A stretch of 41,445 bases of DNA from Methanobacteriales archaeon HGW-Methanobacteriales-1 (GCA_002839705.1 PGYO01000012.1:34909-76353), one strand, 5' to 3'; numbered from the stretch's first letter, positions 6,695 to 41,445 are shown. Notes: generated by a model from the sequence alone, not told the origin. Program-made: numbers and translations.

Positions 6695-9600
6695 TTATTT
6701 TATTTTAGATACTAATAATCCACTTAAAATCATTAATATTGCCATTATTAAGTAGTTTATTGGTGTGCCAGTGTTTTGCATGGCTATTGTATTGCTTGCT
6801 GCGCTTACCTGTGCGGGATTTTTTGCGTTTATTGTGATCGGTGTTATTTCTCGTGTATCTCCGTTGTAGGTGGCTGTGGCTATTGATAAACTGAAGAGAT
6901 ATGCACCTGCTTTTTTGAGTTTCCCGGTAACATATAGATATGGATCACCCACTGCAAGGTTGGTGAAGGTCCAAGTTATGATTCTTGTTTTTTCGCTGTA
7001 GGTCCAATTTCCATCACCATTGACATTGGATATTTCAAAGCCTTCTGGTAGTGGAATAGTTATTGTAACGTTTTTTGCAGGGTCTGGTCCATTGTTTCCG
7101 AGTTTGTAAGTCAGGGTGAATGTTTCACTGATCTTTGGATCCTTTTTACTGCTTGTTACCACAACGTAGACACTGGATTGGGGAATTTTGAGTGTTCCTG
7201 TGACATTTGAACTTGCATACTGGTTATCCGCAGCAAATACTGCATCAACAGAGTATTTTCCACCCACAATGTCTATGTAGTACGTTAAGGTGGCCACACC
7301 ATTATTATCAGTAGTAGCATTACCAACAATTGCACCGTTAACCTTGAAAGTCACGTTCTTACCGATGATAACCAAGTTATGGGTAGTGTCAGTTAAAACT
7401 GCTTTGAAAGTCACATTTGTGCCTTTATTTCCCGTTACATTGTCGATGGTTAAATTGGTTGGTTTTGCATTCACAATTAGATTATTTGTTCCGTTACTGG
7501 GTTCGTATTGTGTGGTTGCGTTGAAGGTTGCGTTTATGGTGTAGGTTCCAACGTTTTCTGCGATGTTGTAGTTGCAGGTTGCCAATCCATTGTTATCAGT
7601 GGTGCCCTGGCCTACGTAATCACCGTTTACGTAGAAGTCAACTTTTTCATTCACAACTGCTCTGGCATGGGATGTGTCCCATAGTGTTGCTGTTAGTATT
7701 GTGTTGTCTCCTTTGTAGCCTGAAGCTACATCAATGGTTAAATTGGTCGGTGTTGAATTCACAGTAAGGGTGTTTGTTCCGTTACTGGGTTCGTATTGTG
7801 TGGTTGCGTTGAAGGTTGCGTTTATGGTGTAGGTTCCAATGTTTTGTGTGATTTGGTAGTTGTAGGTTGCCAGTCCATTGTTGTCAGTGGTGTTTTGGCC
7901 TATGTAGTTACCATTCACGTAGAAGTTAATGATTTTGCCAGCAACAGCCTGGTTACTGTTTGTGTCCCATAGTATTGCTGTTAGTGTTGTGTTGTCTCCT
8001 TTGTAGCCTGAAGCAGCGTTGATAGTTAAACTGGTAGTTATTCCATTCACAAGAACTGATGTACTGAGTGTAAAACCATCCAAAGTTGCGCTTATTGTAC
8101 TCAAACCGTATTTCGCAGGACTGAAGATTGTTGTAACCATTGTACTGCCTATGGTTCCATTTAATGGGTTGATGTTTCCTGAATTGTTGACTGTAAATCT
8201 GACAGTTCCCTCTGGCAGTGCTCCACTTGGAATAATGCCATTGGAGTTATATCTCATATCTGCAGTCACGGTTGAAGTACCTAGTAGACCTAACAAAGTG
8301 GTAGGTGATGCATTCCATCTAAACACTATCCATGGATCAGCATCAACATTAGTGTTCACTCTTACGGCTGCAAATGGATTGGTTCCATTGAAGTTGTCAC
8401 CCCACCAGTTGTTTTCTGCATCTATGGCTCCGCTGGCAGAGTACACGTCGCAGTTTCCTGTATTTCCAAATATTCGGTTGAAGTGCATTACACCAGTATC
8501 TGAACCTCTGCTATTCCATAAAACGCTACCCTGTCCTGTTGCACTGTTACCTGTGAAGATACAGCCAGTTATAGTAAAAGGGCCTGTAAATGAATGAGTA
8601 TTGTAATCGGCCCAGATAACTCCACCATTTCCACCAGATGATGTTGCACGGTTACCCGTGAAGTTGCTGTTTGTGATGATCAGGTTTTTACCTAAATGGG
8701 AAATTGCCCCACCGTAACTTGCACTGTTATTGGTAAAATTACAGCTGTTGATGGTCAAGATACCATAGTTCTCAATACCAGCTCCAAAACCTGCAGTGTT
8801 GTTTGTGAAGTTACTACCTGTAACTGTACAAATACCATTACCGGTGTTCCATATTGTACCACTTTCTGCATGGTTTTTGGTAAAGGTACTGTTGATTATT
8901 TGCGTGACATTGTTGCTCCATATGGCAGCACCGTCATAACTTGCATTGTTAGCTGTGAAGGTACAGTTGATCACATCCATTACACCTGTGGTACCGATGG
9001 CACCTCCACCATAACCCCAGTTAGTATTAGTTGCTATGTTACCTGTTAAATTTGAATTAATAACTTTTAAATAACCTTTACTGCTCCATATTGCTCCACC
9101 TTCTTTTGAAGTATTATTCAGGAAATTACTACTTGTTACTGTGCATGTACCATCATTGGAGATGGCTCCACCGAAACCTGTTGATGTGTTATTTTCGAAG
9201 TTGCAATCAGTAACAGTTAATGTACCGTGGATTTGGATGGCCCCTCCAAAGTTGTCTGCGCTGTTGTTTGTGAAGTTACTCCCAGTTATATTAATAATGG
9301 AACTGCCCCAACTGCCTATAGCACCTGCATTGTATTGTGCACTGTTTTTCATGAAACTACAATTGATCACGGTCAACACATCTGGATCGAGGGATGTACC
9401 TTCACTTTTGATGGCTCCACCACTTCCACGATAGACCCAGTTGTCTGTGAAGCTGCTGTTACTAAATTTAGAAGTACTCCTCACACTGTAGATAGCACCA
9501 CCTTCTCCACGCAATGCATTTTGGCCTGTGAAAATACAGTTATCCACAGTCAGATTACCGAGTTGAGTATAAATTGCACCACCACTCCCCTGACCAGCAT

Positions 9601-10348
9601 CATAAGTACCTGCAATGTTTCTTGTGAAAGTACAATTATTTACAGTCACATTACCCACATAAGGAATAGTCTGAGCTTTGTCACCGTCGTTGTAAATAGC
9701 ACCACCGAAGTTAACAACATTGTTAATATTGAATGTGCTGTTATTCACGACCAATGTACCCCAGTTGGAAATAGCACCACCATTTCCCGCCTCGTTACCT
9801 GTGAAGGTGCTATTGTGCACTGATAAAGTTCCAGTTGGGTTGTTGTGGATTGCACCCCCATAGTTATGTGCGTAGTTATCTGTGAAATTGCAGTTAACAA
9901 CGTTCAGAGTACCATTATTACTAATGGCACCACCTGTAACCGGAAGGATGCCTGTTGCACGTCCATTTACGAAGGTTAAATTCGTGATGGTAACTGTAAC
10001 TGAATCTCTGATGTAAAATATTCTGGCGGTATTGCTTCCATTTATTATGGTATCCTTTTGGTTTTGGCCGGTAATAGTCATGTTTTTGCTTATAACTATT
10101 TCACTGTTGTTTAAACCCGCGTAATTTCCATTTGCTATGTATACTGTCCCTTTTTCATCAACAGATCCTACTCCCATGGATATGGTTTGGTAAGGTTGAT
10201 CGATCGTTCCAGGGTTGGTGTCCAATCCAGTAGTACCATTAACATAAACATTTGAGGATGCACTGGCACTGGAAATGGAAAGTAAAACAGCAAAAAGACA
10301 GATTATGAAGAGGATTTTAATTTTATTACTTTTTATTTGTTTTCTTAT
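6695..10348 (-). CDS. Surface adhesin-like protein: Pmp-type beta-helix, Ig-like repeats, DUF11, C-terminal anchor (AUA start)
   Basis: A 1217-residue secreted surface protein if read from an ATA codon at 10348. Residues 1-30 form a signal peptide (basic start, hydrophobic core, SASA cleavage region). About 17 repeats of the type GGAI-x-N-x-GTL plus C/S-x-F-x-x-N (about 70-600) resemble Pmp/beta-helix repeats. A NNWWG motif closes the helix. Three Ig-like repeats (about 768-1053; two nearly identical), one DUF11 domain (about 1055-1165, with LGNNGPDPAKNVT) and the C-terminal MQNTGTPIN plus membrane helix (about 1188-1215) follow. There is no in-frame ATG, GTG or TTG between the upstream stop and codon 42 (TTG, 10225), yet GGAGGTGA (10353-10360) lies at ideal distance from the ATA. 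Starting at 10225 would discard the intact signal peptide. The role is probably adhesion or surface coating; the ligand is unknown. Confidence 0.85.
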   Translation of the reverse strand: MRKQIKSNKIKILFIICLFAVLLSISSASASSNVYVNGTTGLDTNPGTIDQPYQTISMGVGSVDEKGTVYIANGNYAGLNNSEIVISKNMTITGQNQKDTIINGSNTARIFYIRDSVTVTITNLTFVNGRATGILPVTGGAISNNGTLNVVNCNFTDNYAHNYGGAIHNNPTGTLSVHNSTFTGNEAGNGGAISNWGTLVVNNSTFNINNVVNFGGAIYNDGDKAQTIPYVGNVTVNNCTFTRNIAGTYDAGQGSGGAIYTQLGNLTVDNCIFTGQNALRGEGGAIYSVRSTSKFSNSSFTDNWVYRGSGGAIKSEGTSLDPDVLTVINCSFMKNSAQYNAGAIGSWGSSIINITGSNFTNNSADNFGGAIQIHGTLTVTDCNFENNTSTGFGGAISNDGTCTVTSSNFLNNTSKEGGAIWSSKGYLKVINSNLTGNIATNTNWGYGGGAIGTTGVMDVINCTFTANNASYDGAAIWSNNVTQIINSTFTKNHAESGTIWNTGNGICTVTGSNFTNNTAGFGAGIENYGILTINSCNFTNNSASYGGAISHLGKNLIITNSNFTGNRATSSGGNGGVIWADYNTHSFTGPFTITGCIFTGNSATGQGSVLWNSRGSDTGVMHFNRIFGNTGNCDVYSASGAIDAENNWWGDNFNGTNPFAAVRVNTNVDADPWIVFRWNASPTTLLGLLGTSTVTADMRYNSNGIIPSGALPEGTVRFTVNNSGNINPLNGTIGSTMVTTIFSPAKYGLSTISATLDGFTLSTSVLVNGITTSLTINAASGYKGDNTTLTAILWDTNSNQAVAGKIINFYVNGNYIGQNTTDNNGLATYNYQITQNIGTYTINATFNATTQYEPSNGTNTLTVNSTPTNLTIDVASGYKGDNTILTATLWDTSHARAVVNEKVDFYVNGDYVGQGTTDNNGLATCNYNIAENVGTYTINATFNATTQYEPSNGTNNLIVNAKPTNLTIDNVTGNKGTNVTFKAVLTDTTHNLVIIGKNVTFKVNGAIVGNATTDNNGVATLTYYIDIVGGKYSVDAVFAADNQYASSNVTGTLKIPQSSVYVVVTSSKKDPKISETFTLTYKLGNNGPDPAKNVTITIPLPEGFEISNVNGDGNWTYSEKTRIITWTFTNLAVGDPYLYVTGKLKKAGAYLFSLSIATATYNGDTREITPITINAKNPAQVSAASNTIAMQNTGTPINYLIMAILMILSGLLVSKIK
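7485..7840 (-). repeat. Near-identical DNA repeats encoding two Ig-like domains of the adhesin
   Basis: A block of roughly 65 bp starting TTTGTTCCGTTACTGGG at about 7485 recurs at about 7774, a period near 289 bp and thus about one Ig-like domain. Flanking stretches are also similar, and the third domain is more diverged. This suggests recent duplication or gene conversion of a domain within the gene. Confidence 0.75.
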
Positions 10349-10665
10349 CTTTTCACCTCCTTTATTCTATTAATAATCACGAGCTATTGGGTAATGACCC
10401 ACACCAAAAAAATTAATTGAAGCGAATTAAAATCATTGAAACTGTTAATGAACTAATAATGTGATATACTAAAGTATACTAAATTACTACCCATATATTT
10501 AACGAATAAAAATGAATGAAAACATTTATAAAGCAAAATTAAAAGTATGCGATTATTTATTTACTATAGAAATTAATTTAAATCCATAAAAAAACAAAAT
10601 AGATTTTTATTTACTATAAATTTTAAAATAAAAAAAGGATGAGAAATTTTAAGTTCTCATATCAA
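10349..10665 (-). promoter_or_regulatory. Adhesin promoter and leader, and PQQ-gene terminator region
   Basis: Read on the minus strand, a TATA box TTAAATATATGG lies at 10491-10502. The predicted start, about 25 bp on, falls in a direct repeat: TATACTAAA (+ strand) at 10465-10473 and again at 10475-10483, a 10-bp period that places both copies on one DNA face. The leader holds a small hairpin, TGGGT-AATG-ACCCA at 10388-10401, and ends with the SD GGAGGTGA at 10353-10360. The rest (about 10505-10620) is plain AT-rich DNA. No gene is seen. Confidence 0.5.
10624..10660 (-). terminator. Hairpin plus T-tract terminator of the PQQ-propeller gene
   Basis: ATGAGAA (10639-10645) and TTCTCAT (10654-10660) form a 7-bp stem with an 8-nt loop just after the PQQ-gene stop. 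On the minus strand the stem is followed by T-rich sequence (T6-7, then ATTTTAAAA). Confidence 0.55.
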
Positions 10666-18445: not shown

Positions 18446-18749
18446 ACCATAAGAGTTAGTTGAGAATAATATTTAAAATTTTGTTAAAAATGTATTACTT
18501 ATATTAAAATTTATTCATACTTCGTAATACTAAAATAAGATTAAAATAGAAAGTATTAAAACTATATTACTCCTTTAAATTAGTATATTATGATAATACT
18601 TTATTGGAGGTGAAATATGGGACGTTTTAAAAATTGACATTAATTCAAGTTTAATATTATTTAAAATAGGTGCCTAAATGGCCTAGTTTATAAAATAACG
18701 AATTAGTAATTATTAAAAATAATATTAGATGCAAATATTGGAGGATAAA
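18446..18749. promoter_or_regulatory. Divergent spacer with a 6-codon mini-ORF upstream of the PMBR operon
   Basis: The 304 bp separate the HAD gene (-) and the PMBR peptidase gene (+). AT-rich TATA-like stretches lie near 18559-18568 and 18582-18590. At 18606-18613 there is a full SD (GGAGGTGA), followed by ATG 18617 and a stop at 18635-18637, coding only M-G-R-F-K-N. Further on, GGTG plus ATG-GCC-TAG (about 18672-18687) is another two-codon unit, and TAGG(TG)CC/GGCCTA can form a small hairpin (about 18668-18685). This may be leader-peptide control or a decayed gene start. Confidence 0.4.
18617..18637 (+). CDS. Candidate 6-codon leader ORF
   Basis: ATG-GGA-CGT-TTT-AAA-AAT-TGA stands 6 nt after a perfect GGAGG. 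The SD is stronger than that of most genes here, yet the frame ends after six codons. It could be a leader peptide for the PMBR operon or the relic of a lost gene. There is no evidence of translation beyond the SD. Confidence 0.25.
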   Translation: MGRFKN

Positions 18750-21320
18750 ATGAATAAAATATATTTTATAATAATTGTCCTAATTTTGGCACTATTCATG
18801 AACATTGGTGGCGTATGTGCTGTGAATGTGACGACGGATCAGGTTGCTAATGCATCAGGAACTCTAAAATCGTACGTAGAAGCGAATCATACACTTCCAA
18901 CTAATACGAATGTTAGTGGAAATCAAGTAAGCATGTCGCAGTACTTGAAATTATCAACAACTGCAGTTTTGAATATTAATAACACTTCAAATTCTACTAT
19001 TGCTATTACGAGCTGTAATAATCCCACAGCTCCGTCAGAGACAATTACAACCCGAAACATTAACAAAACTGAGTATTTGGACATTGCTAATCGTGTAAAG
19101 ACATATATTGGTACTAATGGGCGTGCGCCGAATTATGCTTCAACAAGTACTGGAACGATACGTTATGAATCATTAATTTATTTGTACTCACAAATATTGA
19201 GTTCTTATAAAATAAACGGTGTATTGCCGGATTATATTACAATTAATCCGTGGGCAGTTGTTTCAAACGCAAGTACATCATTTATTAGCATTGATCAAGT
19301 AAATAATGCTTCAGACCGTGTAAAGACATATATTGAAACTAATAATAGGCTTCCTAATTATGTGACCATTTCTGGAATCCAAGTAACTATGCCTCAGTTC
19401 TTGGGGCTTTCAACAACAGCATTGTTGAATATTAAAGCTAAATTAAATGCGTCCATCATCCTTAAAAACTATGGAAATGCAACAGATCCCTCTGAAACTC
19501 TTAGAAGTGGAAATATTACATCTACAGAGTATTTGGATATTACAAGTCGTGTAAAATCCTTCATGGAAACTAATGCTAAGGCACCTAATTATGCTTCAAC
19601 AAGCTTGGGGAATATGCGTTTTGAATCATTGGTTTACAATTTCTCAAGAATACTGAGTTATTACAGTACCAGTAACAAAACTTTACCTAGTTCTATTAGA
19701 GTAGCTCCATGGATTAACAGTACCAGTGTAATAGGAAGCAAGAATTATGGTTATGTAGAAAAGGAATTTTATGGAAATCAAAGCTCTAATCAGACTATAA
19801 TGCTTATAATTGGTGTTCATCCACTGGAAAATGGAATACATACTGCTATTTTCAATGCTCTGGTAAATAAGTCACTAGATTTAACAAAAAGGTTTGTTAT
19901 TTATAAAATTCATGTAACCCAAGATGCTGATGATTACAGTAAAGGAAGGATGAACGGACAATTGTTGGGTCAGGAATTTGTGGTTCCGGATGTTACTAAT
20001 GAAAATCCAATGCTGGTTTTAGATAACCATGAAAATCATTATTTAGATAGTGGTTACGATTATTGTAGGTTTTTATACCCTATTTCTAATACCACAATTA
20101 CTACAGCCTATGTAAATGAAATAATCAGTCAAATGCCTTTTTTGGTAAGCTATAGTCCTCCAAATCCAACAAGTACTCAATATATCACAGTTCCAATTGC
20201 AAATCAAGGAATAACTACAATAATCTACGAAACTTACATAAATGACTCTTTGGCTAAAAAACAATCAGATGCCAATGAATTAATCAGTGCACTGGATATT
20301 TTGGGTGTTGAATCTCAAAATAAATTATTTGCTGCTGATTTAATTCCTAGTGTAACTGCTAATCATACTGGTGGAATATTTAATACATCACAAATCGTTG
20401 AGTTAATAAAAACAGATTTAAGCAGTACTGCAATAATTTATTACACTTTAGATGGTTCAGATCCACAAACAAGTGATACGCGAGCGGAATATACGGCTCC
20501 AATTGAGATAGACAGCGATAAAACTTTAAAATTCGTTACTTTTGATTCTACAGATAGTAATTGGAGTTCAGTTTATACTGAAAATTACGTGATTGATGAT
20601 ACAATTCCAACAGCAACTCTTAGCCCTGCTGGAGGGATTTTTAATTCTATTCAAAATGTAGAATTATCAACTGAACCTGGAGCAACAGTTTATTACACTT
20701 TAGATGGGAGTGATCCACGAACAAGTAGTACAAGGCATATATACTCAGATTTAATTTTAATAAACACTTCAAAAACTCTGAAGTTTGCTGCAATTGATTC
20801 TGCGAGTAATTGGAGTCCATTATATGCCGAAACTTATTTGATTGACACTACTGCTCCAACAGTAAACGCTGTTCCTGCAGGAAGAAATTATCATGGCCCT
20901 CAAACAGTGGTTTTGACTTCAAGTGAAGTATCAGATATTTATTATACAACTGATGGAACTGAACCAACAAAAAATAGTACAAAATATCCAGGTCCACTTA
21001 GCATTGAAACTTCAAAAACATTGAAATTCACAGCATGGGATATAGCTGGCAACCAGGCACAGATTTATATAGAAAACTACTCTATTTACAAGCCTGAGGC
21101 CTACAAATACACTGTAAAGGTGCTATATAAGAAAGTAAGGCACAAAGGATGGTACAAAGCTCCATACAAAGTTAAAGTAAAGGCTGGAAAGTACAAAATT
21201 GGAAAAATTTGGAAATACACCTACAAATACGTGACAAAATACAAAATGAAACGAGGATGGCACTCACATCGGCTTTACAGAAATGAGACAAGATGGAATA
21301 ACCATTGGGTGCTAACATGA
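18750..21320 (+). CDS. Secreted pseudomurein-binding protein with zinc-carboxypeptidase-like (M14-type) domain
   Basis: An 856-residue exported protein. Signal peptide 1-23; four pseudomurein-binding repeats at about 27-76, 105-153, 180-228 and 256-305, alternating between an LP..V-x-SG-x-QV type and an APNYAS..G..R.ES type. A peptidase-like domain follows (about 330-540) with H357-x-x-E360 in GVHPLENGIH, H427 and H430 in LDNHENH, and E494 in IIYET, matching the M14/succinylglutamate-desuccinylase arrangement of Zn ligands and general base. Three chitobiase-C-terminal-like beta repeats (YYT-x-DG-x-x-P pattern, about 546-780) and a very basic, Tyr/Lys/Trp-rich tail (about 783-856) end the protein. 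It probably trims wall peptides. SD GGAGG at 18740-18744 fixes ATG 18750 rather than the upstream ATG 18729. The next gene is 28 nt away. Confidence 0.82.
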   Translation: MNKIYFIIIVLILALFMNIGGVCAVNVTTDQVANASGTLKSYVEANHTLPTNTNVSGNQVSMSQYLKLSTTAVLNINNTSNSTIAITSCNNPTAPSETITTRNINKTEYLDIANRVKTYIGTNGRAPNYASTSTGTIRYESLIYLYSQILSSYKINGVLPDYITINPWAVVSNASTSFISIDQVNNASDRVKTYIETNNRLPNYVTISGIQVTMPQFLGLSTTALLNIKAKLNASIILKNYGNATDPSETLRSGNITSTEYLDITSRVKSFMETNAKAPNYASTSLGNMRFESLVYNFSRILSYYSTSNKTLPSSIRVAPWINSTSVIGSKNYGYVEKEFYGNQSSNQTIMLIIGVHPLENGIHTAIFNALVNKSLDLTKRFVIYKIHVTQDADDYSKGRMNGQLLGQEFVVPDVTNENPMLVLDNHENHYLDSGYDYCRFLYPISNTTITTAYVNEIISQMPFLVSYSPPNPTSTQYITVPIANQGITTIIYETYINDSLAKKQSDANELISALDILGVESQNKLFAADLIPSVTANHTGGIFNTSQIVELIKTDLSSTAIIYYTLDGSDPQTSDTRAEYTAPIEIDSDKTLKFVTFDSTDSNWSSVYTENYVIDDTIPTATLSPAGGIFNSIQNVELSTEPGATVYYTLDGSDPRTSSTRHIYSDLILINTSKTLKFAAIDSASNWSPLYAETYLIDTTAPTVNAVPAGRNYHGPQTVVLTSSEVSDIYYTTDGTEPTKNSTKYPGPLSIETSKTLKFTAWDIAGNQAQIYIENYSIYKPEAYKYTVKVLYKKVRHKGWYKAPYKVKVKAGKYKIGKIWKYTYKYVTKYKMKRGWHSHRLYRNETRWNNHWVLT

Positions 21321-21348
21321 AAATTTTTTATCTTAAGGAGGGGAATAA

Positions 21349-24300
21349 TTGCGAAATAAATATTTCATGACAGTGCTATTGATTTTTGGTTTAGCACTGC
21401 TTCTATGTACCAATGTATCTGCAGCGAATGTGACTACAGATCAGGTTGCTAATGCATCAGGAACTGTAAAATCATATGTAGAAACAAATCACGCGCTTCC
21501 AAGCAGTGTTAATGTTAGTGGGAATTCGGTAAATATGCCTCAATATTTAGAACTTTCAACCAAGGCGGTTTTAAATATTAACAATAATTCTAGCTCAAAT
21601 ATTAATATTAGGACTGTTAGTGCACCTACTGCACCTTCAGAAACTATGACGGCGGGAGTTATAAATAAAACCGAATATCTGGATATAGCTAACCGAGTTA
21701 ATACATATATGGTTACTAATGGACGTGCACCTAATTATGCTTCTAGTACTCAGGGAAATATACGTTATGAGTCATTGGTTTATATGTATTCACAAATTAT
21801 GAACTCATACGGTGTTGAAGGTATTTTACCGGACTTCATTCCTACAGATCCGTGGTCTTTAATTTCAAAATCAACTACTAAATTTTTCTCTGTAGCGGAG
21901 GTAACTAATGCATCTGATAGGGTGAAATCATATATAGAAATAAATCATAGGCTTCCAAACTATGTTACAATAGCCGGAAAGCAGGTTAGTATGACTTCAT
22001 ACTTAAAAATTGCAACAACATCTTTGTTAAATACTGTAAGCAATTATTATGCGTCATCAATTCTTGAAAATTTCACAAATGCTTCAGGTCCAACAGAGAA
22101 TATAACTAACCGAAATATGGATATATCTGAGTATGTGGATGTTGCACTTAGAGTTAAAATTTTTATGGACGTCAATAAGCAAGCTCCAAATTATGCGATT
22201 ACCAGTTTTGGAAACATGCGTTTCGAATCACTGGTTTATATGTATTCTCAGCTTCTAAGTTACCACAATTCAACTAAGTACTTACCTCAAAATGTTACAG
22301 TTAACACTTGGTCAGCAATGTCCAATAACAACACGGCTTTTTTCACAGCAGATCAAGTGAATGCTGCTGCAAGTACAGTTAAATCATATATAGAGGCCAA
22401 TCATACGCTTCCAAGTAGTGTTACCATTTCTGGAAAGCAAATTACTATGCCTCAATATTTGAAACTTGCAACTGATGCATTATTAAATATGGGGGGAATT
22501 CTTTGCACATCATTTGCTTCTGTAACCTTTAATGCTGCTGCAAGCCCTTCTGAAAACATTACAAAGATAGACATTAACTCTTCTGAATATGTAGACATTG
22601 CAGGTCGTGTTAATGCTTTCATGTATGCTAATGGGTGTGCCCCTAATTATGCTATAGGTAGCCAGGGAAACATACGGTTTGAATCGTTAGTTTATATGTA
22701 CTCAAAAATACTGGAATCAAGCACTCACACTGATGGAACTCTAGCAGATTACATGCCAGTTGTGCCATGGTCAATTGTTTCTAATTCAAGCACTGTATTT
22801 TTGAATATGAATCAGATAGTTAACGCTACGAGTACTGTAAATGAATATATCATGGTTAATCATGCGCTTCCAAGTAGTGTTACCATTTCTGGAAGACAGA
22901 TAAGTATGCCACAATTTTTAAAACTTGCAGTTAAATCAGTAAAATACCTAGATGGGAATTTATTTACTTCAATTATGTTGGATAATGCGGGAAATGCATC
23001 AAATCCTGTAGAAAATATGACAATTGGGGATATAGTTACAGATGAATATATTGAAATGGCAGATTCAATATGTTCTTACATGGATAATAATGGAACTGCA
23101 CCAAATTACGTCACTGACGCTGTTTTAGGAACTTCAATGCGTTTTGAATCATTAGTTTACATGTATTCACAAATTTTGAATTCCTATAATTCCACGGGAT
23201 CTCTTCCGAACCAGATTAAAGTTATTCCATGGCTGACTGTTTCTAATCCAGATAAATCATATAATTTCAGGACTCAGAAAATGTTTAACAGCATTCAAGC
23301 AGCTATTGATGATAATGACACAATTGAAGGGGATGATATATGGTTAGGAAAGCAAATAATTTCAGAAAATGTAGTTATTAACAAAAGTGTTGCAATTCAA
23401 CCACTCAACGGAAATGTCACTGTACAGGCTTTGAATATGAGTCTTCCAGTTTTCACAATAAATATCAACGGAAACAGTTCAACTATAACTAATCTGATTA
23501 TAAATGGATCAACTGGAAACAGCGGTATTTTTATTAACGGCTCCAGTGATGTAACAATTTCAGATTGTACGTTTTCAAATAACCTTAAAGGGATATTTAT
23601 TAGCAATTCCTCAAATATAGAAATCTCAGAAAATAACATAATGAACAATACTGGGGAGGGTATATTCGCCAGTAACTCTTCTGACAACGAATTTTCAGAT
23701 AATATTATTAAATACAATGGTCTTAGTGGAATAAAGGTTAATAATGGGAATAATACTGTAATATTTAGTAATTTGATTTCAAACAATGGCCAATATGGAA
23801 TAAGTGTTACCAATTCATCTGTAGATATTAATTTCAATCGGATTGTTGCAAACAATGTTTATGGACTTTATAAAGAAGGAAATGGAACACTGAATGCTAC
23901 TAACAATTGGTGGGGTTCAAATAATCCTATTGTATCTTTAAACAACACAAGCGACATTGGTATTATGGGAGGAATAGTGAATTATAACCCGTATATCGTG
24001 CTGACATTAAGTAGTTCTTGTGATCGCTCTAATCGCACTGGAACAAATTATAACTACATTATAAAAGCAGATTTGGCCCATAACAATCAGGGAGCAGATA
24101 CTTCTTCTGAGGGTAATATTCCAGATGGAACACCTGTAAATTTCAGTACAACACTTGGAACTATTAACTCATCTGCATCTACTAGAAAAGGTAAATCTGA
24201 GGCTTTAGTGAATAGTACTAATGCAGGTATTGCTAATGTTTCAGCAATAGTTGATAACAAGACAATAACAACGAATGTTAATATAACTGCAGTTAGTGTT

Positions 24301-26154
24301 CTTGGAATACTTAATAACAGAACTAATGAATCATTCAGCAATATACAAGATGCTATTGATGATGCGGACACTTTAAATGGAGATAATATCACTTTAAGTG
24401 GGGGTACTTACACAGAAAAAGTTCTCGTAAATAAAAAACTTACTATAAGGCCAGTAACTGGTCAAAATGTAACTATTAAACCCGCGGATGGAGATTTTTT
24501 TGTTATAATTATAAGTAATAAAGGAAGCGGTTCAAAAATTCAGGGCTTAAACATAATTGGGAGTATTGATACTTTCGGAATATTGATGAGTTCTACAAAT
24601 AACTGTAATATTACTGGAAATATAATAAATGACAATGAATTTGGAATTTATATGGGTAATTCAACCAATAACACCATATCTGGAAATGTTATAGTTGCTA
24701 ATTGGAATGGAATATTCATTGAAAAATCAAGGAATAATACTATAAGTGGTAACCTAATATCCAACTGCTGGGAAGGTCTTAGCTTAGATAGTTCAATTGA
24801 TACTAAAATAACTGGAAATACAATAAAAATTAACAAATGGGATGGTATTAAAATTGATATTTCAAACAATACAGTAATCTCTGGGAATAATATAACCTAT
24901 AATGGTGGCGGGGTCTGTTATTCTGATTCCAACAGTACAACATTCTCAGGAAACAATGTTTCAGATAACTGGATGGAAGATATATCTCAAATAGATTCTA
25001 CAGGAATAGTAATGGCAAGCAGTGTATTTACCTGTGGGCCGGCATCTCTAGTTACTATATTGAAAAAGTTAGGTGTTAATACCACTGAAGAGGAAATAGT
25101 TAATTTAGCCGGAACAGACCTAACTGGAACTACAATGTATGGTATGTTACAAGCAGCACAATCAAAAGGTTTAATTGCAAAAGGACTTAAATTAAACGTA
25201 AATGAGCTTAGAACTGATAATTTAGTGCTTTTAGCTATTGGTGATCAGGGACATTATATCATAGTGAAGAATGTAACTAACACCACAGTTTACTTAGCAG
25301 ACACCAGTATGGGAAACATGGAGATGTCATTGGAGAAATTTAATTCCCTTTACAGTGGTAATGCGCTGGTTATTACAAATAATGTAAATAATCCTCAATT
25401 AAATAACACCAATGCAATGACTACATCAGAAATGAAGATTGCTAAAGGGCAATTTATCCCTTTACTTATATATGCTGCTGTAATCGCGGCCCCAATAGTA
25501 ATTAGGGTTGTAGCACCTATAGTTTGTAGGTTGGTAGTAAAAGCTGCAATCAGATATGGTCCAAGATTAATATCATATGGATCTAGGGCAATAAAAAGTG
25601 GTACTAGGACTGCAAAATTGACATATAGGGGATCTCAATACGGATCGAAGGCATTAAACTATGGATACCGAACAGTAAATTATGGATCTAAAGTAATTAA
25701 AAATACGAGAAATACAGCATTAAAATACTCAAGTAGAGTAATTAATTATACCACTAAAAAAGTTGCTTCAGTTAAAAAGGTAGCACAAAATGCAAAAAAT
25801 TCAGGCAAAGCAAAAATCGACACAATGTTAAATAGAGTAGAAAAAGAATTCAACAAGAATGCTGAAATATATGGAAAGAAAAACGTCTACCCGTATCTTA
25901 TTAAAGATCAGAAGGGAAAAATCATAGAGTCAACCATTAAAAAAACTAATCAACAACAAGAAGAAGCAGAAGCTATCGGGCAAGCGGCTGCAAACAGTAA
26001 AATAGGATACATTTTAGGATTTTTAAGTGCAGCAGAAGCATCTACAGTTTTCATTAAAGCATTAACAGAACAGTTAAGTAAAGAAGACAATAACAATACA
26101 ACAAATACAACTAATATAACTAAAATTCAGCAGCATAAATACGATGCAGGATGA
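21349..26154 (+). CDS. Giant secreted pseudomurein-binding protein with two beta-helices, C39-like peptidase domain and long basic tail
   Basis: A 1601-residue protein starting at TTG with SD AAGGAGGGG. Signal peptide 1-25; eight pseudomurein-binding repeats (about 28-614) in four A/B pairs; beta-helix 1 (about 647-860, opening SIQAAIDDND, closing NNWWGS); an Ig-like domain (about 875-985); beta-helix 2 (about 999-1210, opening IQDAIDDADT); a C39-like cysteine-peptidase domain (about 1215-1345); hydrophobic segment 1369-1400; YGS-rich basic repeats (about 1400-1475); and a charged tail with a second hydrophobic stretch (about 1551-1572). Catalytic C1229 (FTCGPAS), H1302 (GHYIIV) and D1318 (LADTS) are present with normal C39 spacing, but the Gln expected six residues before the Cys is Ala. 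It is likely wall-bound; pseudomurein cleavage or release of its own C-terminus are both possible. Confidence 0.82.
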   Translation: MRNKYFMTVLLIFGLALLLCTNVSAANVTTDQVANASGTVKSYVETNHALPSSVNVSGNSVNMPQYLELSTKAVLNINNNSSSNINIRTVSAPTAPSETMTAGVINKTEYLDIANRVNTYMVTNGRAPNYASSTQGNIRYESLVYMYSQIMNSYGVEGILPDFIPTDPWSLISKSTTKFFSVAEVTNASDRVKSYIEINHRLPNYVTIAGKQVSMTSYLKIATTSLLNTVSNYYASSILENFTNASGPTENITNRNMDISEYVDVALRVKIFMDVNKQAPNYAITSFGNMRFESLVYMYSQLLSYHNSTKYLPQNVTVNTWSAMSNNNTAFFTADQVNAAASTVKSYIEANHTLPSSVTISGKQITMPQYLKLATDALLNMGGILCTSFASVTFNAAASPSENITKIDINSSEYVDIAGRVNAFMYANGCAPNYAIGSQGNIRFESLVYMYSKILESSTHTDGTLADYMPVVPWSIVSNSSTVFLNMNQIVNATSTVNEYIMVNHALPSSVTISGRQISMPQFLKLAVKSVKYLDGNLFTSIMLDNAGNASNPVENMTIGDIVTDEYIEMADSICSYMDNNGTAPNYVTDAVLGTSMRFESLVYMYSQILNSYNSTGSLPNQIKVIPWLTVSNPDKSYNFRTQKMFNSIQAAIDDNDTIEGDDIWLGKQIISENVVINKSVAIQPLNGNVTVQALNMSLPVFTININGNSSTITNLIINGSTGNSGIFINGSSDVTISDCTFSNNLKGIFISNSSNIEISENNIMNNTGEGIFASNSSDNEFSDNIIKYNGLSGIKVNNGNNTVIFSNLISNNGQYGISVTNSSVDINFNRIVANNVYGLYKEGNGTLNATNNWWGSNNPIVSLNNTSDIGIMGGIVNYNPYIVLTLSSSCDRSNRTGTNYNYIIKADLAHNNQGADTSSEGNIPDGTPVNFSTTLGTINSSASTRKGKSEALVNSTNAGIANVSAIVDNKTITTNVNITAVSVLGILNNRTNESFSNIQDAIDDADTLNGDNITLSGGTYTEKVLVNKKLTIRPVTGQNVTIKPADGDFFVIIISNKGSGSKIQGLNIIGSIDTFGILMSSTNNCNITGNIINDNEFGIYMGNSTNNTISGNVIVANWNGIFIEKSRNNTISGNLISNCWEGLSLDSSIDTKITGNTIKINKWDGIKIDISNNTVISGNNITYNGGGVCYSDSNSTTFSGNNVSDNWMEDISQIDSTGIVMASSVFTCGPASLVTILKKLGVNTTEEEIVNLAGTDLTGTTMYGMLQAAQSKGLIAKGLKLNVNELRTDNLVLLAIGDQGHYIIVKNVTNTTVYLADTSMGNMEMSLEKFNSLYSGNALVITNNVNNPQLNNTNAMTTSEMKIAKGQFIPLLIYAAVIAAPIVIRVVAPIVCRLVVKAAIRYGPRLISYGSRAIKSGTRTAKLTYRGSQYGSKALNYGYRTVNYGSKVIKNTRNTALKYSSRVINYTTKKVASVKKVAQNAKNSGKAKIDTMLNRVEKEFNKNAEIYGKKNVYPYLIKDQKGKIIESTIKKTNQQQEEAEAIGQAAANSKIGYILGFLSAAEASTVFIKALTEQLSKEDNNNTTNTTNITKIQQHKYDAG

Positions 26155-36652: not shown

Positions 36653-37030
36653 TTAATCAACTGATAATGTTACGAAATCCCCATCTCGGACATTGAGAGT
36701 TTCTCTAACATTTTCAGAAGTAATAAACTCTAAAAATTCTTTGGGATGGTGTGTTTTAGCTGGAAAAATTACGGCACCTTCTAATTTATCTTCAAGTGTT
36801 GCTTTGATGAATTCAACATCTCCAAAGCCTCCTTCACCCTTTACAATTTCCGCATTTTTTTCACGAATTTCATGAATATTTTCCAGATCTTGTTTCTCAA
36901 TAAGAATATTGAAAGTACCTTCAAATGGTTTGAATCCTAACTTTTCTTGAAATTGATGGATATATATTTCTTGAGACATAAAATAACTGCCTTTTTGTGA
37001 TCCGGAAGTTACTAATCCTTTTATTTTCAT
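36653..37030 (-). CDS. ribK: CTP-dependent riboflavin kinase (archaeal type)
   Basis: A 125-residue archaeal riboflavin kinase making FMN from riboflavin with CTP rather than ATP. The start KGLVTSGSQKGSYFMS (3-18), KPFEGTFNILI (about 34-44), and the end FPAKTHHPKEFLEFI plus LNVRDGDFVTLSV (about 94-124) match the small beta-barrel family founded by the Methanocaldococcus enzyme. No N-terminal winged-helix regulator domain is present, unlike many euryarchaeal RbkR fusions, so it is kinase-only. SD AAGAAGGAA precedes ATG 37030. ribB follows downstream. Confidence 0.92.
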   Translation of the reverse strand: MKIKGLVTSGSQKGSYFMSQEIYIHQFQEKLGFKPFEGTFNILIEKQDLENIHEIREKNAEIVKGEGGFGDVEFIKATLEDKLEGAVIFPAKTHHPKEFLEFITSENVRETLNVRDGDFVTLSVD

Positions 37031-37424: not shown

Positions 37425-40400
37425 TTGAAAATTTATAATATTTTGTTATTAATATCAATATTTTTGATTTTTAATATGGGCTGTGTATTTGCTGCAGGTC
37501 CAGATACTAATTATACCAATGATTCTGATTTTGATAAAGGGAATTTGAGTGGATTGGAACATAATAGCACGCATAATCAGCTGCAACTTTCTAATAGTTC
37601 TAGTTCAGCAAATCCTTTCATCTGGGTTCCTAATAGCAATGAAGGAACTGTTTCTAAAATAAATACTATCACTGGTATGGAGGTGGCCCGGTATAAAACC
37701 AGTAACCTTACTTATTCCAATCCTTCCAGAACCACCGTGGATCTGGATGGTAACTGCTGGGTAGGAAACCGGAACATAGGTACTGTAGTTAAAATTGGGC
37801 TTTTAGAAAGTGGCCATTGGATCGATCGTAACCATAATGGGGTGGCAGATACTTGTCGTGATGTGGATGGTAATGGGGTAATTAACTCCACTGAGATTCT
37901 TCCCTGGGGCATGGACGAATTTGTATTATGGGAAGTAGTTCTGATTCCCGGAAGTGAAGGTAGCTTTGTTCCAGGTAAATACAATGGTTCTTATGTAAAT
38001 GATTATTACAATCCCGGGCCTCGGGGTCTGGCCATTGATTCCAAAAACAATCTATGGGTGGGAACTTATGGAACTATGAAATATTACTATGTGAATGGTT
38101 CAGATGGTCAGATATTAAAGACAATTGATGTTTCATCTGTGGGTCACACTCCTTATGGTGCAGTAATAGATCAAAATGGGATTCTCTGGTCTTCAGGAAA
38201 TACGGGTAATAATGTTTTGAGGTTAGATACTTCCAATAATACTTTCACTCGAATCAATCTTCCCCATAAATCATATGGTCTGGCTCTGGATCGCAACAAT
38301 CATTTATTTGTCTCAGGACTGGATCACTATCGCATAACTTGTATAAATGTTTTAAATGGGACTATTTTATGGACAAAATCTGCTTCCTATGCTCAGGGGA
38401 TAACTGTTTCTGATGACGGTGATATCTGGACAGCAGATAATGTTAAGGGAACGGTTACTCGTTATTCCAATAATGGTATTTTTAAGGCAACTATTATTGT
38501 GGGAAATACTCCCAGTGGGGTTTCTGTGGATAATATGGGTAAAATCTGGGCAGTGGATACCAATGATGAATATATTCACCGTATAAATCCAGCTAATAAT
38601 CAAACTGATGGTGATGGAAATATTGTTAATGGGGTGGAATTCTCCAAGAGAATAGTGGGGGGAACCCATTATGGATACAGTGACATGACGGGTGCCCTAT
38701 CCAATACCATCACCACTAATCATGGATCATGGACTGTAGTTCATGATTCTGGTATAAATAATGCCTTATGGGGCGTTATATCCTGGAATGCTTATGTTCC
38801 TAATGGTACCAGTGTGAATGTACGGGTTAGAAGTTCTAATGATAAAATTACTTGGTCTATTTGGGAAGATGTTTTAAATGGTGAATATTTAAAATCAACA
38901 CCTAATGGTCGATATTTAGAGGTGGAAACAACTCTGGAGAGATTTAAGGGCAGTGTTTCTCCTATACTTTATGATCTATCAGTTCGGGTATTGAAATCGG
39001 ATATTAATATTATAAATGGTATAAATAATTCAGTTCCTAAATTAGGGGACACTATTAAGCTGGTTACAGTGCTTACCAATAATGGCCCGGATTCTGCCCA
39101 TAACATAACGGTGGTTGTGAATATTCCTCCGGGCTTTAAACCATTAATTCCAAGTATAGGTGTTCTTAATGGTACTGTGTGGACGATTAATACTTTAATT
39201 CCGGGTGAGATTGCTGTACTTGAGATTGTAGGTAATATAACTCAAAATTTAACCAGTAAAAATATTACTTACTCTGCTAATGAAACCCACAGTGAATACG
39301 ACTCTAAAACTAATCCACCTGCCACTATTAACTTCTATGTTCCTTTTTCAGATATTAAACTGGATTATTCTCTTAAAAATGGTAAGCCTACTTTGACTGT
39401 GAGGAATATTGGGCCAGATGGTGCTTTCAATATTAATGTGAAAACTTCTATACCTTCGGGTTATACGCCTAAAACCTCGGGTGGTACTTATAAAGGAGGA
39501 ACCTGGACTATAACTTCTATTCCTTCTAATGGATCCTTTACTATGACTTTGGTTCCATTACGTGGTAATAAGACTCCTAATACTTCTGATCCTTCTAGTC
39601 CAGGGTATCATGGTTCAATTAATAATCATCATGAAGTGAATCAAAATTCTACTCAGGTAAATGCAAGTTCTTCTTCTCAAACTAGAAAAGGTTCTTCAGT
39701 TCCTATGCAGCAGACTGGGGTTCCTATTAATTTCTCTGCCATTGCCATTCTTTTCATGTTCTTTGCAGCCTATCTAAACAAAAATGACAATGAAATCAGG
39801 CCTAATAAATGGTTGATATTGTTTATTGTTTTGTTCTTGGCCTTGCTCTGCATGGGAAATGTAGGGGCGGCTGATACTAATTATACTAGTGATGAGGACT
39901 TCCAAAAGGGTACCTTTAATAATGTTAATGGGTCTGATGGTTCCTTGAAGTTGGCCAATTCATCTAATGCTGCTCGTAACTATATCTGGATACCTAATAG
40001 CAATGAAGGAACTATATCTAAAGTAAATGTGAAAACTGGCCAAGAAGTGGCTCGTTATAAAACTAATCCTAGTTCTGGATCTCAACCAGTTCGTATTGCA
40101 GTAGATACTCAAGGTAATTGTTGGGTTGCCAACCGGGTAACTGGTTCTTTAATTAAAATTGGTTTGTATGAAAATGGGGTTTATGATGATCGAAATCATG
40201 ATGGTATTATTCAAACCTGCCATGATGTGGATAAAAATGGTATTATAACTCCTGAAGAGGTTTTAAACTGGGGATCTGATGAATGTGTAACCTTGGAGAC
40301 AATTATAATTCCAGGTAAAGAGGGAGTATTCCATCCAGGATCATATGGTGGGGGGTATGTGGCTTATGGTACTGGCTTGACCTCCCTAGTACTGGATAAT

Positions 40401-41445
40401 AAAAACAATGTCTGGCTGGGCATTGGTGAGAATCAAACTTTAATGTATATTAATGGCTCCAGTGGAGAGATTTTGAAGAGTTACAATGTTACGGCCTATG
40501 GCCACAGCCCTAATTTTTCAGTTATAGATAAGAATGGCATATTATGGTCTGGAGGAAGTAATTTACTGCGTCTGGATCCAAGTACAGGTTCCATTAGTGT
40601 AACGAATATGGGTTACACTATTTTTGATATGGCCTATGATAATGAGGATCATATATTTGCTTATGGTAATTATCCACATTGGTACTGGCATGACACCCGG
40701 TTTTCAAGGATAAATGTGGATAATAACACCGTAGACTGGACAAAGGTATTGCCCGCTTACATGCACACTGGGTCTCTAGCAGTAAATAGTAATGGTGATG
40801 TGTGGGTAGCACAGTATTATAATCACTGGTGGTGGGGTAAATCTACTAGATTTGGTGTTTATTCTCATGATGGTGTTCTTAAATCGGATGTAATATCTGG
40901 TCCGTCTCCTTTTGGTTTGTGTTTTGATAGTTATGGTAAGCTATGGGTTATGGATTTGGATGGGGAGTATATTCACAGGTTTGATACTAGTATAAATGGT
41001 ATTGATCTTTCTAAAAGATTGGTATCTACTAATCATAATGCTTTAGGTTATTTCACTGTTAAATCACCAGATAAGTATGAAACTGGGGCCTGGAGTGTGG
41101 TTCATGATTATGGTAGCATTACTGGTTGGGATAATATTTCCTGGAACAGTTTTGAACCAGTGGGAACTAAGGTTTCGGTTCATGTGAGAAGTTCCAACGA
41201 TCAAATTAACTGGTCCAACTGGGAAGATGCAGTTAATGGTCTATCACTAAAGATGACACCTCCTGGCCGATATCTGCAAGTAGAAGTTAATTTAGAACGT
41301 TTTAATAATACCGAATCACCTGTGCTTTATGATATTAGTTTTAATCCTTTGAATGTGACTTCTGAGGTCACTGATTTGGCGGTGAGTATAACTGGTAATG
41401 CTAGTAGTGTGGGTATTGGTGATACGGTTCGTTTGGTTATTAGTC
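37425..41445 (+). CDS. Tandem-duplicated surface beta-propeller/DUF11 protein, two copies fused in one frame (3' end outside window)
   Basis: One frame stays open from TTG 37425 to the window end (at least 1340 codons). Copy 1: signal peptide 1-24, a Vgb/YncE-like propeller (about 48-400) with repeats such as IWVPNSNEGTVSKIN, a Ca-type loop (134-164), a beta domain with WTVVHDSG (about 435-525), DUF11-like domains (about 527-740), then MQQTGVPIN (761-769) and a membrane helix (770-784). Instead of a stop, a short basic loop (785-796) leads into a second signal-peptide-like helix (797-816) and copy 2, which repeats the domain order from DTNYT (817) at an offset of 790 residues. Both propellers would lie outside, joined by a membrane hairpin. 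GTG 37410 is an alternative start. Role: surface coat or adhesion, inferred. Confidence 0.8.
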   Translation, partial: MKIYNILLLISIFLIFNMGCVFAAGPDTNYTNDSDFDKGNLSGLEHNSTHNQLQLSNSSSSANPFIWVPNSNEGTVSKINTITGMEVARYKTSNLTYSNPSRTTVDLDGNCWVGNRNIGTVVKIGLLESGHWIDRNHNGVADTCRDVDGNGVINSTEILPWGMDEFVLWEVVLIPGSEGSFVPGKYNGSYVNDYYNPGPRGLAIDSKNNLWVGTYGTMKYYYVNGSDGQILKTIDVSSVGHTPYGAVIDQNGILWSSGNTGNNVLRLDTSNNTFTRINLPHKSYGLALDRNNHLFVSGLDHYRITCINVLNGTILWTKSASYAQGITVSDDGDIWTADNVKGTVTRYSNNGIFKATIIVGNTPSGVSVDNMGKIWAVDTNDEYIHRINPANNQTDGDGNIVNGVEFSKRIVGGTHYGYSDMTGALSNTITTNHGSWTVVHDSGINNALWGVISWNAYVPNGTSVNVRVRSSNDKITWSIWEDVLNGEYLKSTPNGRYLEVETTLERFKGSVSPILYDLSVRVLKSDINIINGINNSVPKLGDTIKLVTVLTNNGPDSAHNITVVVNIPPGFKPLIPSIGVLNGTVWTINTLIPGEIAVLEIVGNITQNLTSKNITYSANETHSEYDSKTNPPATINFYVPFSDIKLDYSLKNGKPTLTVRNIGPDGAFNINVKTSIPSGYTPKTSGGTYKGGTWTITSIPSNGSFTMTLVPLRGNKTPNTSDPSSPGYHGSINNHHEVNQNSTQVNASSSSQTRKGSSVPMQQTGVPINFSAIAILFMFFAAYLNKNDNEIRPNKWLILFIVLFLALLCMGNVGAADTNYTSDEDFQKGTFNNVNGSDGSLKLANSSNAARNYIWIPNSNEGTISKVNVKTGQEVARYKTNPSSGSQPVRIAVDTQGNCWVANRVTGSLIKIGLYENGVYDDRNHDGIIQTCHDVDKNGIITPEEVLNWGSDECVTLETIIIPGKEGVFHPGSYGGGYVAYGTGLTSLVLDNKNNVWLGIGENQTLMYINGSSGEILKSYNVTAYGHSPNFSVIDKNGILWSGGSNLLRLDPSTGSISVTNMGYTIFDMAYDNEDHIFAYGNYPHWYWHDTRFSRINVDNNTVDWTKVLPAYMHTGSLAVNSNGDVWVAQYYNHWWWGKSTRFGVYSHDGVLKSDVISGPSPFGLCFDSYGKLWVMDLDGEYIHRFDTSINGIDLSKRLVSTNHNALGYFTVKSPDKYETGAWSVVHDYGSITGWDNISWNSFEPVGTKVSVHVRSSNDQINWSNWEDAVNGLSLKMTPPGRYLQVEVNLERFNNTESPVLYDISFNPLNVTSEVTDLAVSITGNASSVGIGDTVRLVIS

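Follow-up and report, generated by a model that had tools for sequence, protein, structure and literature searches.

Organization of the fused gene

Does a single archaeal reading frame really encode two large surface proteins, and if so, what does it make? The question is raised by one end of a 41,445-nucleotide stretch of DNA from Methanobacteriales archaeon HGW-Methanobacteriales-1 (the window; G000:C12:34909-76353), which ends where contig C12 of assembly G000 ends (G000:C12:76353). A first-pass annotation had described this region as two complete surface proteins fused in frame by tandem duplication. Translation from the TTG codon at 37425 remained open through 41444 (1,340 residues), in accordance with the claim that the span holds no stop. 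The features of the region are as follows.

36653-37030, minus strand: riboflavin kinase, upstream flank (Pfam)
37425-41445, plus strand: fused open reading frame, TTG start, running off the contig end (a 1,695-codon frame in the relative G001)
37425-37496, plus strand: signal peptide 1, LKIYNILLLISIFLIFNMGCVFAA (from sequence; hydropathy 2.58)
37500-38714, plus strand: beta-propeller 1 (Vgb_lyase/NHL/SGL by Pfam; dN/dS 0.06-0.10)
39000-39311, plus strand: DUF11 (Ig-like) domain of copy 1 (Pfam), followed by another Ig-like domain and a Ser/Asn-rich stretch
39705-39776, plus strand: MQQTGVP plus hydrophobic segment, a wall-sorting-type (LPxTG-like) C-terminal anchor signal in internal position (motif matches in the genome; sortases)
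39777-39812, plus strand: loop NKNDNEIRPNKW joining the two helices and doubling as the n-region of signal peptide 2 (one D/N change only in five alleles)
39813-39872, plus strand: signal peptide 2, LILFIVLFLALLCMGNVGAA, with predicted cleavage at A816/D817 (G-A-A/D invariant in five alleles)
39873-41084, plus strand: beta-propeller 2, the fast-varying carrier half (divergent substitute in G002:C89)
41358-41445, plus strand: beginning of the second DUF11 domain; in relatives (G001 L044:13535-18619) followed by a Pro-rich linker, QLPRDI..VRD, a polymorphic tip and a partner gene

The same riboflavin kinase flank is found in G001 and anchors the locus in its syntenic position. Measured at the copy starts (37503 and 39873), the offset of the second copy is 2,370 bp, the value given in the first-pass annotation; over about 525 residues the copies share 47% identity, which makes the duplication an old one. 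Copy 1 carries the signal peptide, propeller, DUF11 domain and C-terminal anchor signal ascribed to it, the propeller being identified by Pfam as Vgb_lyase/NHL and the anchor signal by its sorting-type motif. Regarding copy 2, the best Foldseek match of a low-confidence AlphaFold model (four sequences, mean pLDDT 49), of which the propeller fold alone was used, was the archaeal YVTN propeller 1l0q (E 6.6e-13), with Vgb lyases at a TMt of about 0.7; the modelled fold is thus of the YVTN/Vgb/NHL type. Elsewhere in the window, at 18729-26154 (plus strand), two adjoining genes encode large pseudomurein-binding-repeat proteins of 863 and 1,601 aa, the longer of which has a beta-helix, NosD and a peptidase C39 domain.

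Conservation of the fusion

The fused frame was found in five alleles from three species, namely on contigs C12 and C13 of G000 (the latter at the contig end), in G001, and on contigs C6 and C89 of G002. Across the junction the alleles differ with dS of 0.10-0.41 and dN of 0-0.028, with no indel or stop; within residues 756-818 there are 4-13 synonymous and 0-4 nonsynonymous differences (dN/dS 0-0.15). Constraint at the junction is about that of propeller 1 and exceeds that of both the DUF11 stretch before the junction and propeller 2 behind it. The junction is under strong purifying selection, and the fusion is real and old. A sequencing error concealing a stop or frameshift at 39785-39840, earlier named as a possible refutation, was considered and rejected, since the same open junction in the other four alleles excludes a base error.

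G000 and G002 have two loci each and G001 has one; the flank of the second locus is present in G001, with no match to the fused gene beside it. On contig C89 of G002 (L045:2-3619), copy 1 and the junction are as elsewhere and propeller 2 is very different (dN about 0.45), from which it follows that the carrier propeller has been swapped as well. The core of the window gene was found in its own genus and as a weak relative in G138, and no further; a single-propeller ancestor was looked for in G138 and not found, an empty result that says little.

The junction: sorting signal and second signal peptide

The two helices and 12-residue loop of the first-pass annotation were recovered as strongly hydrophobic segments at residues 766-784 and 797-815, separated by the loop (785-796) and followed directly by A816|D817. 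Signal peptide 1 ends in F-A-A and signal peptide 2 in G-A-A|D, and the motif DTNYT follows both. Searching the whole genome for the MQxTGxP DNA pattern gave 11 matches, and the reversed control none. All nine matches outside the fused genes lie 27-30 residues from the C-terminus, with a hydrophobic stretch and then a basic end behind them; the motif is internal only in the two fused genes, where a signal peptide comes directly after it. An ordinary terminal signal of this type, MQNTGTPINYLIMAILMILSGLLVSKIK, ends a large Ig/DUF11 surface protein within the window (6698-10366, minus strand). Genomes of the genus encode two sortases each. Given the terminal position of the motif elsewhere and the presence of sortases, copy 1 reads as a standard wall- or membrane-anchored protein that has no stop and is joined to the next signal peptide. 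For Methanobacteriales, large surface proteins described as adhesin-like are on record, as are sortases and LPxTG-like motifs (PMC2812497). The fused gene resembles such substrates in its TG-containing motif, hydrophobic stretch and basic end, with sortases present in the genome, but departs from them in that the signal is internal and is followed by a second signal peptide and more than 870 residues.

Both signals flanking the loop are of the processing kind, which favours cutting of the chain to give two exported products, i.e., a surface polyprotein, over a static hairpin; the terminal position of the sorting signal in the nine other proteins, the sortases and the invariance of G-A-A|D in five alleles all point this way. 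In the hairpin arrangement both helices would stay embedded in the membrane and one uncut chain would display two propellers, and the tip, outside the cell. A pair of neighbouring, strongly hydrophobic stretches joined by a 12-residue loop, kept in five alleles, would suit such a structure, but the first is a signal that is otherwise terminal in a genus with sortases, the second retains a textbook signal peptidase site, and the same DTNYT motif stands behind both signal peptides, which together make an in-out hairpin unlikely, if still a serious contender.

Gene end, tips and orphan cassettes

The window gene ends with its contig before the tip, so that the architecture of the tip was read from relatives. 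G001 has a complete 1,695-codon frame with a stop; its second half contains no anchor, and behind DUF11 come a Pro-rich linker, then QLPRDI..VRD and finally a variable tip. Of the supposed two complete proteins the fused frame therefore stands and the completeness does not, copy 2 being cut by the contig end and lacking an anchor in G001; nor is copy 2 a second anchored surface protein, and its best reading is that of an effector carrier rather than a second anchored adhesin. The gene itself is best read, from its sequence and that of its relatives, as the probable head of a system made up of a polymorphic effector whose C-terminal tip can be swapped, the cognate partner gene and an array of orphan cassettes.

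In G001 the tip is followed directly by the partner gene, then by an orphan unit, in which a fragment of the core is joined to another tip and another partner, and by conserved flanking genes. Tips are about 200 residues long and partners 240-310. The switch from core to tip is sharp, the median similarity falling from 0.88 in the core to 0.07 in the tip, i.e., from near-identical to unrelated, so that a conserved exported body carries a sharply variable C-terminal tip. Most tips include a hydrophobic stretch, and many could be membrane anchors; most partners look cytosolic. Two units (L045:3633-4633 and L017:2478-3547) have short, very hydrophobic tips followed by a different, two-gene set of membrane-protein partners, and in a single unit (L016:508-2303) the partner gene lies on the opposite strand to the adjoining tip, in convergent orientation.

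At least 11 orphan units were found on four contigs of G002. The G000 assembly breaks within the repeat family, with orphan units on C24, on C25 and at the start of C13. No exact end overlap of C12 with C24, C25 or the start of C13 was found. Exact overlaps do exist between the end of C13 and C25 (95 bp), between C25 and C24 (99 bp) and between C24 and the start of C13 (64 bp); these would close C13 on itself and are either repeat-driven or a real tandem arrangement.

Covariation of tip and partner, and exchange of units

Similarity among tips is matched by similarity among the downstream cognate partners (Mantel r=0.86 for 20 pairs; r=0.80 for 15 dereplicated pairs, P=5e-5). In the 13 dereplicated units with a scorable core, the tip-partner correlation was r=0.76 (P=5e-5), whereas the control correlations in the same units were r=0.12 (P=0.18) for tip and core and r=-0.09 (P=0.70) for partner and core; linkage between adjacent tip and partner adds to the covariation, but the core is equally adjacent and does not covary.

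Tips move between fused and orphan positions and between species. The tip of the fused gene in G001 recurs as an orphan in G002 with 97% identity. In the 498 codons of one tip and partner there is just one base difference between G000 and G002 (dS 0); other units shared by these two genomes show dS of 0.02-0.08 and a few of them dS near 0.25, so exchange has not been uniform. The housekeeping flanks of the same two genomes differ with dS of 0.47-0.56. As G002 is a metagenome-assembled genome, mis-binning may explain part of the near-identical cassettes.

Partners are also found apart from the one-tip, one-partner arrangement. One partner of G000 is 98.5% identical to a partner of G002, with the tip lost (90 bp as against about 1,550 bp between the flanking homologous blocks). 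A second such system (L085; G000:C12:2-3800) lies on the contig that carries the window, to the left of the window, and consists of one Lys-rich tip with four divergent partner genes in tandem behind it, which are 64-75% identical to one another. A tip-less partner and a multi-partner array fit antidotes kept for protection.

Distribution and neighbourhood of the partner family

The partner family is present in 25 of 139 family genomes, representing 11 of the 17 genera of Methanobacteriaceae, and a profile search of 152 genomes of the phylum found it in 29, all Methanobacteriaceae. No homologue was found among 50,697 phage records, 72,556 plasmids or IMG/VR, and a phage, plasmid or viral origin was rejected on these grounds. 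At most of 28 loci across the family, the partners lie right behind an open reading frame that bears a variable tail. A secreted protein of at least 900 residues is encoded upstream of 15 of 57 partners and of none of 105 other genes from the same stretches (Fisher P=4e-8); partners within one array are not independent, and ten separate loci show the association. The head proteins include PD40-type propellers and some that, by sequence, look like right-handed beta-helices. Tails outside the genus of the window mostly contain 14-34% Lys+Arg.

These observations bear on two further readings. In the first, an allorecognition-like receptor and adaptor, the tip would be a membrane anchor with a cytoplasmic tail and the partner a cytosolic signalling adaptor, with no antidote involved. 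The hydrophobic stretch in most tips and the cytosolic appearance of most partners would agree with this, and specificity between tip and partner is equally compatible with it. However, orphan cassettes that lack signal peptides, tip-less partners and several partners per tip fit immunity better, and the many very Lys/Arg-rich tails of other genera are unlike an anchor; a receptor-adaptor pair is accordingly improbable. In the second, silent cassettes would alter the tip of an adhesin for surface or host binding, the partner being a chaperone or secretion helper. Cassette arrays and exchange would be expected here, and large secreted proteins of Methanobacteriales are commonly annotated as adhesin-like (PMC2812497), but such variation has no need of a dedicated, covarying and often duplicated partner that lacks export signals, and a chaperone need not match each tip; antigenic or adhesive variation is thus quite doubtful.

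Comparison with known systems

Neither tips nor partners gave a significant match to Pfam, NCBIfam, PADLOC or PDB sequences, which leaves the partner family with no model or sequence relative in these collections and the tips with no recognisable toxin domain. Weak matches of Lys-rich sequences (e.g., ApoLp-III) and to Ntox28 (E 0.1) were judged compositional.

The closest layout is that of CDI and Rhs systems, for which orphan toxin/immunity arrays of this kind are documented (PMC3150448). Shared with them are a large, exported and conserved body, a variable C-terminal tip behind a short conserved motif, an immunity-like gene downstream, orphan tip/partner arrays with pieces of the body, and tips exchanged between full-length genes and orphans. 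Unlike CDI and Rhs proteins, the archaeal body consists of propeller and DUF11 domains, Pfam detecting no two-partner secretion domain, CdiB or haemagglutinin repeats, and there are no YD repeats; QLPRDI..VRD takes the place of VENN, the tips fall outside known toxin families, the partners belong mostly to one family, and the gene has an internal sorting signal and a second signal peptide. The MafB proteins of Neisseria are likewise secreted polymorphic toxins with immunity genes, for which 'silent cassettes' have been discussed (PMC4287609), but their domains and organism are unrelated.

Among archaea, polymorphic toxin systems are reported by Makarova 2019 (mBio), as cited in PMC8416519, with DNase and RNase tips the commonest. 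To the extent of that citation, the likeness lies in a long exported head protein, an array homologous to its C-terminal regions and immunity genes, and the difference in that no DNase or RNase tips were found in the system of the window. The hypervariable Ig modules of Thermococcales (VARTIG, arCOG07710), with no counterpart reported outside that order (PMC8416519), also combine an archaeal surface protein, a hypervariable C-terminus and specific neighbour genes, and their function is similarly debated; here, by contrast, the tips have no Ig match, the host belongs to Methanobacteriaceae, and what varies is a distinct tip, which moves with its partner as a unit within and between genomes. This effector-partner system of Methanobacteriaceae was not found described in the literature searched, which did not include the main archaeal survey (Makarova 2019); the novelty of the partner/effector family is not certain.

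Proposed mechanism

The open reading frame in the window probably covers the first four fifths, from the N-terminus, of a polymorphic effector that has a covarying partner and is of CDI/Rhs/MafB type but on a fused archaeal chassis. The complete effector (about 1,690 residues in G001) would consist of signal peptide 1, propeller 1, Ig-like/DUF11 domains and the internal wall-sorting signal in its N-terminal half, and of signal peptide 2, propeller 2, DUF11, the Pro-rich linker, QLPRDI..VRD and the exchangeable tip in its C-terminal half. Judging from the sequences, the part of the effector that is toxic or active in some other way, and that reaches related cells, would most likely be the tip; the adjoining partner, mostly cytosolic and sometimes a membrane protein, would be the immunity protein to that tip. 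Orphan cassettes, through their core piece, would offer homology for the acquisition of new tips by recombination and may also maintain immunity against the tips of other strains. Cutting by sortase and signal peptidase would most likely yield two products in equal amounts, a propeller-1 protein attached to the wall and, separate from it, an effector made of propeller 2 and the tip. The full proposal, in which sortase and signal peptidase cut an archaeal polyprotein to give, at a ratio of 1:1, a propeller fixed to the wall and a propeller-effector that is released, within a family-wide effector-immunity system hidden among 'adhesins', is put forward tentatively, as possible though short of probable. 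Restart of translation near 39813-39852, giving two separately translated proteins, was rejected as very improbable, because the in-frame TTG and ATG codons there are preceded by no ribosome-binding site of at least 5 bases, C13 and G001 have CTG in place of the first TTG, and no stop separates the copies.

Significance

Little is known of contact weapons in archaea, and the habitats of methanogenic Methanobacteriaceae include guts, rumen, sediment and groundwater. The fused gene is a rare test case in which a wall-sorting signal and a signal peptide stand back to back in one prokaryotic frame, possibly a true surface polyprotein; the choice between polyprotein and hairpin is a genuine question that can now be put more sharply. 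Of wider import, the gene appears to head a polymorphic effector-partner system, with toxicity and cleavage as predictions. If the tips are toxins, many of the large 'adhesin-like' proteins of methanogens may be weapons with dedicated antidotes.
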